Shown: piece after piece, positions 9,132 to 43,582 of the stretch
Layout of the letters: the number at the start of each line of letters is the position of its first letter
How positions within the stretch are numbered: position 1 is the stretch's first letter
NCBI GenBank assembly: GCA_913031625.1
Contig: CAJWGB010000014.1
Coordinates: 1 to 46,348 of the forward strand
DNA from: an uncultured Planctomycetaceae bacterium
Lineage (GTDB): Bacteria; Planctomycetota; Planctomycetia; Planctomycetales; Planctomycetaceae
Length of the DNA stretch: 46,348 nucleotides
Direction of reading: 5' to 3'
Notes under the pieces: model-generated
Seen by the model: only the letters and a program-made list of their open reading frames with translations
Database searches by the model: none
Told to the model about the DNA's origin: nothing
Translations under genes and position numbers: made by a program

Positions 9132-10838
9132 ATGCATCCAGACAGGATTGGCCCATGGATCATCAATCGTAAGGTTGGTGCCGGAGGTATGGGAAACGTT
9201 TATCACGGCACTCACGAATCAAGCGGTGAGGTTGCTGCCGTCAAAGTGCTGCCCGCATCCATGGCGCGCGAAGAGGGTTTTGTCCATCGATTCTCGCGCG
9301 AGATTGACGCCCTGCGCAAAGTCACCAGCCCTAATATTGTTCAGATTTTCGATGATGGCCAGACTGATGACGGGAGCCTGTACTTCAGCATGGAGTACGT
9401 GGACGGCGAAACACTGACGAAACTCATCTCACGTCGTCGCCGACTGCCATGGGCGGAAGTGATCGAAATCTCGATTCAGATTGCCAATGCGCTTAAGGCG
9501 GCTCACAACACGGGCATTATTCATCGGGACCTCAAGCCTTCCAATCTCATGATTACGGGAGAGGGCGAAGTCAAACTGGCGGACTTTGGAGTAGCCCACG
9601 TCTTTGCGTCGACCCGGCTGACAAGGACAGGTGGGATTGTCGGGACTGCTGAGTATATGTCACCGGAGCAGGCGCGCGGGCACCGGGCCACCAAACTGAG
9701 TGACCTGTACTCCCTGGGTGCCGTCATGTATGTGATGCTGACCGGCAAACCGCCGTTCAGCGGAAACGCGATTGCCGACATCATGCATAAGCATCAGTTT
9801 GGCCAGTTTGACAAGCCCAGTCATTACGCGCCTGACCTGCCCCGACAGCTTGAGGACTTTGTCTGCAAACTGCTTGAGAAACGGCCGGAGCGCAGAATCC
9901 CGGATGCACTGGTTGTTGGTCGTCAGCTGACAAACATCAGGAACCTTATTCAATACGAGCAGGAACAGAAGGAGCAGGAACAGAAGGAAAAAGAACAGAC
10001 ACAAGTTGCTGACCGAACGGTGGGTGCGGCTGCTGGCCAGACTGCCGGCGTGCTTGTCGATCGCCCCGACATGTCTCGAGGACCGGCGACCATCGTTCGC
10101 GATGCTGTCCGCCAGGAAATCGCCGACTCTCAGAAGAAGTCACCCGTCGCCGCATTTTTTGACAACACGTACGTCCTGATTGCGATGCTGGCACTGGTGA
10201 TTGCGGCCGGATTCTATCTGTCCAGACAAAACAAAACGACTCCGGAAGACATCCGCGCTGAAGCCGAAGCTCTGATGAAGAAACCGGCAGGTCATGGATG
10301 GCTGCGGGCACGCGACGATCTGTTGCGGCCGCTGGTTGAATCATCTGAAGAGGCCGCCTACGATCAGGAGGTCCGCGACTGGATTCACAAAGCAGATCAG
10401 TATGAATTTGCCCGAGGCCTGCGAAAACGCAGTTTCTCGGACGGCTCAACACAGTCCGAAGTGCAAAGACTGATTTCGCAGGCATTTCAGACATGGAATG
10501 ACGGCGACGTCGGGGCGGCTCGGGCACGTCTGCTGGATGTTGAACGGTTGTTGACCGATCGGGACGCTTACCTTCGGTCCTTCATTCGCCAGACCCTTGA
10601 TGAATGGCGAGAAGATCCCCGAATCGCGGGCCGAAAGGAAATGCTTCGGGAAATCCTGCGGGAAGCGCGAAGCAGCCAGCAGGACGAACAGGAGATTGAC
10701 CGCACTGCAGAGCGTTTGCGTTCCCTGATCAACATTTATGGAGAAGATCAGACGGTCGCCATCGAAGTGCACAAATGCCGCGAATTACTCACCCAACTGG
10801 ATCAACAGAGTGCCGAATCGAGCAACGGCAAAAATTGA
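9132..10838 (+). CDS. Membrane-anchored Ser/Thr protein kinase (PknB-type)
   Basis: A 568-residue kinase. The catalytic domain covers about residues 9-270: glycine loop VGAGGMGNVY, K38 in AAVKVL, HRDLKPSN at 131-138, DFG at 151-153 and SPEQ at 177-180, all consistent with activity. A charged Gln/Glu/Lys segment (276-291; EQEQKEQEQKEKEQ) follows, then one transmembrane helix at about 347-364. The remaining 200 residues would lie outside the cytoplasm and are rich in helix, with no recognised domain. This is the usual receptor-kinase layout of planctomycetes and actinobacteria. The ATG at 9132 sits directly before the domain; the frame stays open upstream to 9036, so a longer N-terminus is possible. 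Its 3' end overlaps the promoter of the following Fur-family gene. Confidence 0.92.
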   Translation: MHPDRIGPWIINRKVGAGGMGNVYHGTHESSGEVAAVKVLPASMAREEGFVHRFSREIDALRKVTSPNIVQIFDDGQTDDGSLYFSMEYVDGETLTKLISRRRRLPWAEVIEISIQIANALKAAHNTGIIHRDLKPSNLMITGEGEVKLADFGVAHVFASTRLTRTGGIVGTAEYMSPEQARGHRATKLSDLYSLGAVMYVMLTGKPPFSGNAIADIMHKHQFGQFDKPSHYAPDLPRQLEDFVCKLLEKRPERRIPDALVVGRQLTNIRNLIQYEQEQKEQEQKEKEQTQVADRTVGAAAGQTAGVLVDRPDMSRGPATIVRDAVRQEIADSQKKSPVAAFFDNTYVLIAMLALVIAAGFYLSRQNKTTPEDIRAEAEALMKKPAGHGWLRARDDLLRPLVESSEEAAYDQEVRDWIHKADQYEFARGLRKRSFSDGSTQSEVQRLISQAFQTWNDGDVGAARARLLDVERLLTDRDAYLRSFIRQTLDEWREDPRIAGRKEMLREILREARSSQQDEQEIDRTAERLRSLINIYGEDQTVAIEVHKCRELLTQLDQQSAESSNGKN

Positions 10839-19999: not shown

Positions 20000-20551
20000 A
20001 TGTCTGCTGATACTCTTGCGAAAATCGTTGTTCGCTCTCAGTCTGGCGACGCCGAAGCGTTCGGTCAGCTGTACGAACAGTTCTACTCCCGGGTCTTTGG
20101 AATCGTTATGCAGCGATTACGAAACACGGCTGAAGCGGACGAAATCACTCAGGAGGTTTTCCTGCGTGCTTACCGAAAGCTTGAGCAGCTGAAGGAAGCG
20201 GCCGCATTCCCTGGCTGGATCTGCCAGATCGCTGTCCGTCTTTCCATCAATCGAGCTGTTCGTCGGCCACCCGAAACAGCATGTGAACCATCTTCCTTCG
20301 AAGTCATGCAGGAAGCTCCGGGCAGCCCGGACGCTGAACTCATGCAGGTGGAAGATGCCGAGCAGCTGCGAGACGGTATCGATCGTCTGGGTGAGCTCGA
20401 CCGCCGAACGTTACTGGCTTTCTACTTTGATGGTCAGTCTCTGAAGGAAATGAGCGTTTCGTTCGACAGCCCGATCGGTACGATCAAGCGCCGACTGCAC
20501 ACGGCTCGACACCGACTGCACGATGTGCTTTCCGGTATGCAGACGGCATGA
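20000..20551 (+). CDS. ECF-type RNA polymerase sigma factor
   Basis: A 183-residue group IV sigma factor. Region 2 covers about residues 20-90 (FGQLYEQFYSRVFGIVMQRL, EADEITQEVFLRAYRKL, FPGWICQIAVRLSINRAVRR). Region 4 covers about 125-175 (LRDGIDRLGELDRRTLLAFY, SPIGTIKRRLHTARHRL). ATG 20000 is chosen (GGAG 10 nt upstream); ATG 19985 is also in frame. No anti-sigma gene follows: a strong terminator comes 47 nt after the stop, so its regulator, if any, is encoded elsewhere. Target genes cannot be told from here. Confidence 0.92.
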   Translation: MSADTLAKIVVRSQSGDAEAFGQLYEQFYSRVFGIVMQRLRNTAEADEITQEVFLRAYRKLEQLKEAAAFPGWICQIAVRLSINRAVRRPPETACEPSSFEVMQEAPGSPDAELMQVEDAEQLRDGIDRLGELDRRTLLAFYFDGQSLKEMSVSFDSPIGTIKRRLHTARHRLHDVLSGMQTA

Positions 20552-31244: not shown

Positions 31245-31892
31245 ATGCTGTCAATGACTGAGACAAATGCTGACTTCGGAACGACCAGCGAGATGACAGA
31301 ATCCGACGATTCGGTCATCTCGCAGGCTACCGACGCGCGGCTGGTCGACGAAGCCCGGCGTGGAAATACGGACTCATTTGGCCAGTTGGCTCAGCGATAT
31401 GAGCGGCGGGTGCTGAAAGTGATCCGTCGATTCATGCCGGACCAGGAACTGGCCATGGATCTCGCTCAGGACGCATTTCTGAAAGCCTTCGATCGACTGG
31501 AACAGTTCGATCCCTCGCGTCGATTCGGCCCCTGGCTGTTTCGGATTGCTGTCAACACAACCTACGACTACCTGCGAAAAATCAAACGCAAGGGGAAGTG
31601 GGCCCTGTTCAGCGAAGCCGGAGAAGACAGGATCCCGGATCCAGAAGCGGTTGACCCCCGCAAAGACCTCGACCTCTCCCACGAAGTGCGGACTGTGCTC
31701 GAAGAACTGCCGGAGTCCTACCGAACCGTGATGGTGCTGCGAGATCTGGAAGGATTCAGCACCTCTGAGGTAGCCGCAGTTACTGAACGCAGCGAAGCAA
31801 CGATTCGCTGGCGGCTGGCAGAAGCTCGCCGCATGTTCAAAGACGCATGGGAGCGACGACAGCGCAAGATTGAAGAAGAGCAACTGGGTTAG
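31245..31892 (+). CDS. ECF sigma factor (RpoE-like) paired with a zinc anti-sigma factor
   Basis: A 215-residue ECF sigma factor. After an acidic Thr/Ser/Asp-rich N-terminus (residues 1-28), region 2 runs about 30-110: LVDEARRGNTDSFGQLAQRY, MDLAQDAFLKAFDRLEQFDP, FGPWLFRIAVNTTYDYLRKI. Region 4 runs about 145-200: RTVLEELPESYRTVMVLRDL, EGFSTSEVAAVTERSEATIR. The anti-sigma gene starts 3 nt after its stop, the standard pair arrangement, so the sigma factor is likely held at the membrane until a signal arrives. The downstream zinc-ribbon protein, sulfatase and DUF1501 genes may be in the same transcript or regulon. ATG 31254 is a second possible start. Confidence 0.93.
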   Translation: MLSMTETNADFGTTSEMTESDDSVISQATDARLVDEARRGNTDSFGQLAQRYERRVLKVIRRFMPDQELAMDLAQDAFLKAFDRLEQFDPSRRFGPWLFRIAVNTTYDYLRKIKRKGKWALFSEAGEDRIPDPEAVDPRKDLDLSHEVRTVLEELPESYRTVMVLRDLEGFSTSEVAAVTERSEATIRWRLAEARRMFKDAWERRQRKIEEEQLG

Positions 31893-42079: not shown

Positions 42080-43582
42080 ATGATGCCTGGAGATCCGTCA
42101 TCCCTTCGTATGTTCGCCAGCTTCGCGGCCGGCAGTGAATCCGCTGCTGACCGTATCTTTCAACGATATGTAAAGCGATTGAGCCGCCTCGCGCGCACGC
42201 GACTCACCCCTCGGGTTGCCGCTCGCGTTGACCCCGAAGATATCGTTATGTCCGCCTGGCGCAGTTTCTTTGTGGGGTCCAGACAGAATCAGTTTGACGT
42301 TGATCGCTCGGGTGATCTGTGGGCACTGCTGGCGCGAATCACACTCCTCAAACTCTATCGAGCAGTGGAACGACACACGGCACAGAAACGGTCCGTCGAT
42401 CAGGAAGCTCCGCTGGCTCCTGAAGACAGGGAACTCGGCTTCGGCGACGATCGTGAGCCCACTCCGGAAGAAGCAGTTGCTCTGTCAGACTACGTCGAAC
42501 ATCTCCTGCAGAGCCTGACCCCGCGCGATCAACGGATCGCAGAACTGCGGCTCCAGGGTGAACTGATCGAAGATATTGCCATCGCAGTCCAGTGTTCAGA
42601 AAAGACTGTCCGCCGAAGTCTCCAGGCCCTGCGGGGCAAACTTACGGAAGCTGCCGGCGAATCCCCACTGCCGATGGCGGATCAATCGGAAACACAGCGG
42701 ACTCCCGTCCAGCACAGTCCATCCGTAACGACGACTTCTGAAATCGTCTGTTCGCTTCCACAGGTCAGTTTCGCCAGTCTGACACTGACTCGCCTGATTG
42801 GTCAGGGAGGAATGGGAAAGGTCTATCATGCCGACCTTGATGGAGCGGACTCTGCCGTTGCCGTGAAGTTTCTCCATCGTTCGTTTCAGCAGAACCAGGA
42901 GGCCGTACAGCGTCTGTTGAGGGAAGCAGAAATCATTCATCAGCTGGACCATCCGGGAATCGTAGGTCTGCGGGGGATCGGCCGTACGGCGGCAGGCGTC
43001 TACTTTGTGGTGATGGATCTGCTCGAAGGAAAAACGCTCCAGACAACCGCTGAGCATCCTGCTCCGGAACACACTGTTGACTGGATCATTCAGCTCGCCG
43101 ATGCTCTCGAACATGCGCACAACGCGGGAGTCATTCACTGTGATCTGAAGCCGTCTAATGTGGTCGTTACGTCCGACCGAGCTGTTTTGACAGATTTTGG
43201 GCTGGCCCATCTCCAAAGCTCTCAGCGCAATCGAATCCTGTCCGGCACTGCTCCATGGATGGCTCCGGAACAGGTTGATGAGTGGTTTGGACCAGTCACC
43301 AGAGCAACGGATGTCTACGGACTGGGCGCCCTCCTCTATACGCTGCTCTCCGGCCGACCACCATTCGTATCGGAGTTCGAAGTCGCGCACAGTTCGGCTC
43401 GCACTCCGGACATCCTCTGCCGAGTCGTATCTCTGGAGCGCCCAAAGATCCCTTCCGGACTGTCGGCAACCGCTGAAGAATTGTTCAACATCAGTCTGTC
43501 CTGCCTTGCACGGGAGCCCGATCGGCGCCCTGAATCTGTTGCCGTTATTCGCCAACAACTCAGGAATCTGCGATTGGTCTGA
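42080..43582 (+). CDS. Single-chain fusion of an ECF sigma factor and a Ser/Thr protein kinase
   Basis: A 500-residue protein in one uninterrupted frame. Residues about 10-190 form an ECF sigma factor: region 2 has RVDPEDIVMSAWRSFFVG and DLWALLARITLLKLYRAV; region 4 has LLQSLTPRDQRIAELRLQGE and DIAIAVQCSEKTVRRSLQAL. A polar linker covers about 191-230. Residues 235-497 form a kinase: glycine loop IGQGGMGKVY, K263 in VAVKFL, HCDLKPSN at 353-360, DFG at 372-374 and APE at 395-397. The HRD Arg is Cys, so it is a non-RD kinase, likely not needing activation-loop phosphorylation. There is no membrane helix. Separate sigma and kinase genes side by side are common in planctomycetes; the fusion would put both in one soluble chain. 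No internal start with a ribosome-binding site is seen at the linker. Confidence 0.93.
   Translation: MMPGDPSSLRMFASFAAGSESAADRIFQRYVKRLSRLARTRLTPRVAARVDPEDIVMSAWRSFFVGSRQNQFDVDRSGDLWALLARITLLKLYRAVERHTAQKRSVDQEAPLAPEDRELGFGDDREPTPEEAVALSDYVEHLLQSLTPRDQRIAELRLQGELIEDIAIAVQCSEKTVRRSLQALRGKLTEAAGESPLPMADQSETQRTPVQHSPSVTTTSEIVCSLPQVSFASLTLTRLIGQGGMGKVYHADLDGADSAVAVKFLHRSFQQNQEAVQRLLREAEIIHQLDHPGIVGLRGIGRTAAGVYFVVMDLLEGKTLQTTAEHPAPEHTVDWIIQLADALEHAHNAGVIHCDLKPSNVVVTSDRAVLTDFGLAHLQSSQRNRILSGTAPWMAPEQVDEWFGPVTRATDVYGLGALLYTLLSGRPPFVSEFEVAHSSARTPDILCRVVSLERPKIPSGLSATAEELFNISLSCLAREPDRRPESVAVIRQQLRNLRLV

Follow-up and report, generated by a model that had tools for sequence, protein, structure and literature searches.

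A planctomycete ECF sigma factor and a non-RD Hanks-type kinase on one soluble chain, with a ferredoxin neighbour conserved in relatives and a candidate serine switch

In the stretch of DNA analysed here (the window, 46,348 nucleotides from an uncultured Planctomycetaceae bacterium; GenBank assembly GCA_913031625.1, contig CAJWGB010000014.1), one gene joins an ECF sigma factor to a Hanks-type Ser/Thr kinase. The fusion, and its linkage in related genomes to an FdxA-type ferredoxin gene, are firm, and a switch at Ser58, a conserved serine in the polymerase-binding region of the sigma part, is a good prediction from the alignments. With a probability of about 0.5, the kinase would phosphorylate Ser58 on its own chain, enabling the sigma factor to bind core RNA polymerase and to transcribe fdxA and its own gene. 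What can be read from the DNA of the clade is a fusion with intact catalytic residues, a conserved serine, a linkage to FdxA, and a shared intergenic element; among ECF sigma factors under kinase control, this is a widespread variant that apparently has not been described before. The features of the gene are the following.

42080..43582, + strand: fused ECF sigma factor and non-RD Hanks Ser/Thr kinase, 500 aa (ORF, Pfam, homologues)
42119..42649, + strand: ECF sigma regions 2 and 4, residues 14-190 (Pfam Sigma70_ECF)
42251..42253, + strand: Ser58 codon, eighth position of the motif DPEDIVMS (region 2.2, core-binding), candidate phosphosite (Ser in 78/78)
42263..42265, + strand: Ser62 codon (RSFF), second candidate phosphosite (Ser in 77/78)
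42650..42784, + strand: flexible linker, residues 191-235 (188-221 with pLDDT <50)
42785..43549, + strand: Hanks-type kinase domain, residues 236-490 (Pfam Pkinase)
43136..43144, + strand: HCD catalytic-loop motif, residues 353-355, non-RD (clade alignment, 78 loci)
43193..43201, + strand: DFG motif, residues 372-374 (sequence, clade alignment)

The reading frame begins with ATG and runs through 500 residues without interruption, matching Sigma70_ECF over its first part (E 1.5e-18, 67.8 bits against a curated cut-off of 21.1) and Pkinase over its second (E 2.8e-42, above the curated cut-off), which confirms the original prediction of a single 500-codon frame joining sigma regions 2 and 4 to a complete kinase. 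The kinase residues are also as claimed there: K263, E282, H353-C354-D355, N360, and DFG at 372-374 are in place, providing the Lys, Glu, catalytic Asp, Asn, and DFG of Hanks-type kinases, and HCD replaces HRD, so that the Arg of RD kinases does not precede the catalytic Asp. No membrane helix is expected because the top 19-residue Kyte-Doolittle mean, a simple score, is 1.38, in agreement with the soluble chain proposed earlier. An AlphaFold2 model from 13 rows (mean pLDDT 74.5) has two folded parts joined by a disordered linker (residues 188-221); the kinase blocks mostly exceed 85, sigma region 2 is mostly at about 70-80 and region 4 at about 50-60, and the placement of sigma part and kinase relative to each other is unreliable in this model. 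The closest solved structures to the kinase part are bacterial kinases of the PknA/PknB type. The domain matches in the chain are those of sigma and kinase and no sensor domain was found, which does not favour the earlier idea that the kinase senses a signal directly.

Among 21 Sigma70_ECF matches in the same genome, the window frame is the only one that also holds a kinase, and elsewhere in this genome sigma and kinase genes adjoin unfused, for instance on contigs C38, C22, and C104. That the two commonly are separate neighbours, as had been anticipated, is borne out by a survey of five genomes, in which 34 of 53 unfused Sigma70_ECF genes lie within 1.6 kb of a kinase on the same strand. The 53 do not include a G005 match with an internal TGA or five own-genome matches that are weak or partial, two of which (C381 and C226) stand beside kinases.

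The fusion is genuine, and the search of other planctomycete genomes called for earlier recovered the same two-domain order in the window's family and in eight more families. Full-length homologues in other genomes, with 39-51% identity from end to end, rule out a sequencing error or two misjoined genes, and likewise chance or misassembly, as its origin. A profile of eight fused proteins, applied at E 1e-75 to 170 genomes of the window's family, matched 63; three of these (G092, G100, and G113) have RD kinases outside the clade, leaving 60 carriers, a count that is our own reading of the search output and includes remnants, fragments, and unfetched loci. The profile also matched 88/397 genomes in a sample of the class and 11/343 in a sample of the phylum, both including RD kinases. 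Absences in these searches are soft because the best few candidates per genome were scored. In eight families beyond the window's, the fusion and FdxA lie within the same fetched stretch. Within the window's genus the distribution is patchy, with matches in three of the seven other genomes (G003, G005, and G006) and none in the other four.

The clade was defined by 78 loci with both halves, from 77 genomes, excluding two loci that have lost the sigma part (G158 and G134), three cut by contig ends (G099, G104, and G133), RD-kinase relatives, and matching genomes whose loci were unfetched or not included, such as G155. K263, E282, D355, N360, D372, and G374 are identical in all 78, and the residue preceding the catalytic Asp is Cys in 46, Gly in 26, Ala in 5, Ser in 1, and Arg in none. 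HCD is thus a trait of the clade and not a local defect, as HRD occurs in 0/78 members, and a dead or decaying kinase is ruled out by this absence together with the kept catalytic residues; other kinases of the window's genome have HRD in 28 of the 29 checked. A kinase-domain tree groups 40 fused with three split members (99/96), separate from 32 rows of the window's genome that include a few duplicates. Eight HRD-kinase loci obtained from the class search have no FdxA in the fetched stretch. Three fused relatives (L057, L066, and L085) have one in-frame TAG each, due to a nonsense change or a sequencing error, and an apparent central deletion in L191 (G158) and L192 (G134) has removed the sigma part, sparing the kinase and, wholly or in part, FdxA.

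Eleven of the 78 loci encode sigma factor and kinase in two genes whose frames overlap, and at the three junctions read (L189, L190, and L196) stop and start overlap. The split kinases possess an additional N-terminal region of about 110-165 residues, with a motif like EEYRxRxRWGDxP (L189, L190, L196, and L372-L379); each of these regions is related to most of the others and bears a weaker likeness to that of a paired kinase on contig C38 of the window's genome. Pfam scans of two split kinases yielded kinase-type families alone and no match for the N-terminal region. In a concatenated tree, fused and split members are sisters in two cases, L095 with L190 (100/99) and L048 with L377 (96/87), and the fused/split label needs six changes, four of them forced by starred branches. 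With the backbone of the tree unresolved, this suggests that the fusion arose repeatedly, provided that the lost N-terminal region was not regained. The two outgroup rows fall inside an unresolved part, so that the tree does not root the clade, and a clean count of fusion events was given up.

Of the 78 loci, 73 have an FdxA-type gene in divergent orientation no more than 400 bp from the sigma start, and there the gap between sigma and FdxA domain matches is 93-349 bp (median 153). The remaining five are the window, G166 (1,527 bp off), G559 (2,245 bp off), G049 (none in 3,485 bp), and G613 (at a contig edge). When the neighbouring genes of the window and 20 relatives were clustered, no other family approached this frequency: the next recurring one (cl1) is found in 8/21, and clusters cl2 and cl3, with 8 each, correspond to the ferredoxin gene or to the frame antisense to it. 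This ferredoxin matches Fer4 and DUF3470 and resembles the 7Fe-type FdxA in scoring 117-124 bits on NF045490; it differs in that these scores fall below the cut-off of 135 and that the planctomycete set comprises two paralogues, either of which may face an ECF gene in divergent orientation. Of 27 further FdxA loci, 14 have a divergent kinase-less ECF, the window's own genome among them (contig C62), and 13 have no ECF in the fetched stretch, at least two of these being cut by contig ends. The locus on C62 (L208) holds the only FdxA gene of this genome (1507-1776, - strand) and an ECF frame (2035-2865, + strand) whose eighth motif residue is Asp. A tree of FdxA paralogues was set aside, being weakly resolved on 90 columns, with five fusion-linked FdxA falling beside the others.

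The region between the two divergent genes carries a bipartite site, TGAATGCA-N-CGGACACG, in 43 training loci, with a gap of 16 in 31 of them. The TGAATGCA-N16-CGGACACG matrix reaches at least 12 bits in 37 of the 43 loci that trained it; the control rates at this score are 3% for shuffles (129), 9% for reverse strands (43), and 5% for random pieces (172), with one random piece at 21.3 bits. An unguided Gibbs search on the training loci reached 596-606 bits, compared with 238-267 for shuffles, and chose CGGACACGA and the T-rich block that follows. Out of sample, on 28 loci mostly from other families, the element is weak: 13 score at least 10 bits (random pieces 3/140, shuffles 7/140, reverse strands 0/28), and 7 at least 12 bits (random pieces 0/140). 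The spacing of the element fits a sigma-dependent promoter in either direction. A genome-wide regulon based on TGAATGC-N17-CGGACA was abandoned: the pattern matched 63/170 genomes, only some of the listed places were at FdxA, and the reversed pattern was no fair control for codon bias. In G049, whose fusion lies elsewhere, contig C11 ends beside a second FdxA with an element of 21.8 bits (L239), and a second sigma-kinase module may have been cut off by this contig end.

The sigma part keeps the acidic DxED of the core-binding motif (DPED in the window protein), and in the region 2.2 motif the alignment has Ser as the eighth residue (Ser58) in 78/78 clade members and as residue 12 (Ser62) in 77/78. 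At the other FdxA paralogue, all 14 divergent ECFs without a kinase have an acid at the eighth position, Glu in 8 and Asp in 6, the alignment of one of them (L242) being uncertain. In the survey of 53 unfused genes, a nearby same-strand kinase accompanies 16/20 ECFs with Ser or Ala at position 8, 16/18 with a QPTA-like motif that retains Glu there, 1/13 with the acids intact, and 1/2 with Gln. From these counts, a nearby kinase goes with the loss of one acidic contact, in two forms, the associations of neighbours and residues being non-independent across related genomes. L275-L290 and L299 represent a large kinase-paired ECF group with a QPTA-like motif in place of DAED, similar to the QTTA described for ECF43 in the accessible text on that group.

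According to the preferred reading, the gene would encode a soluble ECF sigma factor that carries its own activating kinase on one chain. The sigma part retains the acidic DxED contact to RNA polymerase and has Ser58 where the core-binding motif DxxDxxQE ends, at its eighth residue, which is mostly Glu or Asp in kinase-less sigma factors. The tethered non-RD kinase would act within its own chain or on a second one, phosphorylating Ser58 and perhaps Ser62 too; the missing charge would then be supplied by the phosphate, allowing core RNA polymerase to be bound. At an ordinary locus, the active sigma factor would read a promoter between its own gene and the divergent FdxA gene, making both products. 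We infer the phosphorylation, the direction of its effect, and the role of the element as the promoter of this sigma factor. Phosphorylation of the sigma part by its own kinase, raised in the original prediction, is plausible, and a specific candidate residue, Ser58 in region 2.2, can now be named. A precedent is provided by EcfP and EcfK, which are described in the accessible text of two reports as switched on by phosphorylation in the same region (PMC13147305, PMC8999054). Against the reading stand the Ser/Ala-class ECFs of the survey, 3/20 of which are kinase-paired with Ala at position 8 and could not be phosphorylated there, while 4/20 have no same-strand kinase nearby, and the several clade members, including the window's, without an adjoining FdxA. 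Moreover, since DxED is kept, the sigma factor may bind core polymerase without the phosphate.

A more tentative reading adds FdxA as a possible redox input: the ferredoxin would sense the redox or Fe-S state, contact and control the non-RD kinase, and thereby turn on the sigma factor, which would transcribe fdxA. If true, this would amount to a circuit of sensor, kinase, and sigma factor without a membrane protein or an anti-sigma factor. It is unlikely that phosphorylation of Ser58/Ser62 turns the sigma factor off, with the kinase as a built-in anti-sigma factor; the retained DxED could allow the unphosphorylated sigma factor to bind core polymerase already, but kinase-free relatives have acids and not neutral residues at position 8, and the ECF43 kinases studied activate, as far as the accessible text of PMC8999054 goes. 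The kinase fold could instead be a regulatory domain that binds a nucleotide or a partner, with catalysis in second place, like other C-terminal extensions of ECFs. Non-RD kinases are often regulated in other ways, and the non-RD loop of all 78 members would suit this reading, but the invariant Lys, Glu, Asp, Asn, and DFG, in contrast to typical pseudokinases, make it rather improbable. It is also quite doubtful that the kinase does not regulate its own sigma factor and is merely delivered by it to RNA polymerase, with the polymerase or another transcription factor as substrate: the fusion indicates proximity and not the substrate, and every catalytic residue is kept, implying that some substrate exists, but an invariant Ser58 in the polymerase contact, acidic in the kinase-less FdxA-linked ECFs, points to the sigma part. 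Least probable is an FdxA linkage fixed by descent through a shared divergent promoter region with no functional tie. In its favour, the members are all related, and close linkage is missing from the window, G166, G049, and G559; against it, the linkage lasts across nine families as other neighbours change, and at least two FdxA matches occur in 56/60 carriers of the family against 9/110 others, by hand count across related genomes.

The phosphorylation of a sigma factor has been demonstrated for the ECF43 group (PMC8999054, accessible text), represented by EcfP/PknT of Vibrio parahaemolyticus and EcfK/PknS of Xanthomonas citri, which shares with the clade an ECF sigma factor and a Hanks kinase encoded together, here on the same chain, and a Ser/Thr switch in region 2.2 at the polymerase contact, known in ECF43 and predicted here. 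ECF43 lacks the DAED acids, with uncharged residues and Thr instead, and has a separate kinase, PknS being a membrane receptor (PMC13147305, accessible text); in contrast, DPED is present in the window protein and the clade keeps DxED, with serine at position 8 and a soluble, non-RD kinase on the same chain. The groups ECF59, ECF61, ECF62, and ECF217, with mostly planctomycete representatives, are presented in the accessible text of PMC8999054 as phosphorylation-regulated with a DAED-like motif, in or near which some have Ser/Thr, and DPEDIVMS agrees with this pattern when compared by description. That text describes these groups through neighbouring kinase genes and mentions no fusion or ferredoxin partner. 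Ser is the phosphorylated residue in ECF59 and in the original ECF60, according to the accessible part of PMC8103513. ECF41 and others with C-terminal extensions are likewise regulated by a domain fused behind region 4, which is SnoaL-like or similar and not a kinase. In the titles and abstract beginnings of open-licence literature, neither a fusion of an ECF sigma factor and a Hanks kinase nor a ferredoxin link to one was found; the 105 accessory domain groups reported for kinases of this phylum in the accessible portion of PMC11032199 might include such a sigma fusion.

In the clade, kinase and sigma factor are one molecule with one candidate residue, there is a natural contrast set (Ser in kinase-linked members, Glu or Asp at the kinase-less FdxA paralogue locus), and a candidate promoter lies beside the ferredoxin gene. 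To test how planctomycete ECFs are switched when they are associated with a kinase but retain DAED, one purified protein and a single DNA fragment would now suffice.

The window itself is an exception. Its sigma-kinase gene lies 9 bp 3' of an MBL-fold gene; no ferredoxin gene was found in the window, one FdxA lies elsewhere in the genome, and the element is absent directly upstream of the gene, the best + strand match nearby, upstream of the MBL gene, scoring 11.7 with a gap of the wrong size. The MBL-fold and lipid-kinase genes, suggested earlier as parts of the unit, were both rejected: neither adjoins the fusions of G003, G005, or G006 in the stretches fetched, and the MBL-fold gene is conserved independently (35/39 relatives) and is some 0.9 Mb away from the fusion in G005. 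Judged by its surroundings, the window gene is an orphaned member, the ferredoxin and the element having probably gone from the locus and the gene now standing behind a housekeeping MBL-fold gene, and its control must differ from that of its relatives. The protein looks functional because its catalytic residues and Ser58 are intact. Elsewhere in the window, another kinase and two more ECF sigma matches occur at 9162-9899, 20015-20530, and 31335-31853, mutually unlinked.
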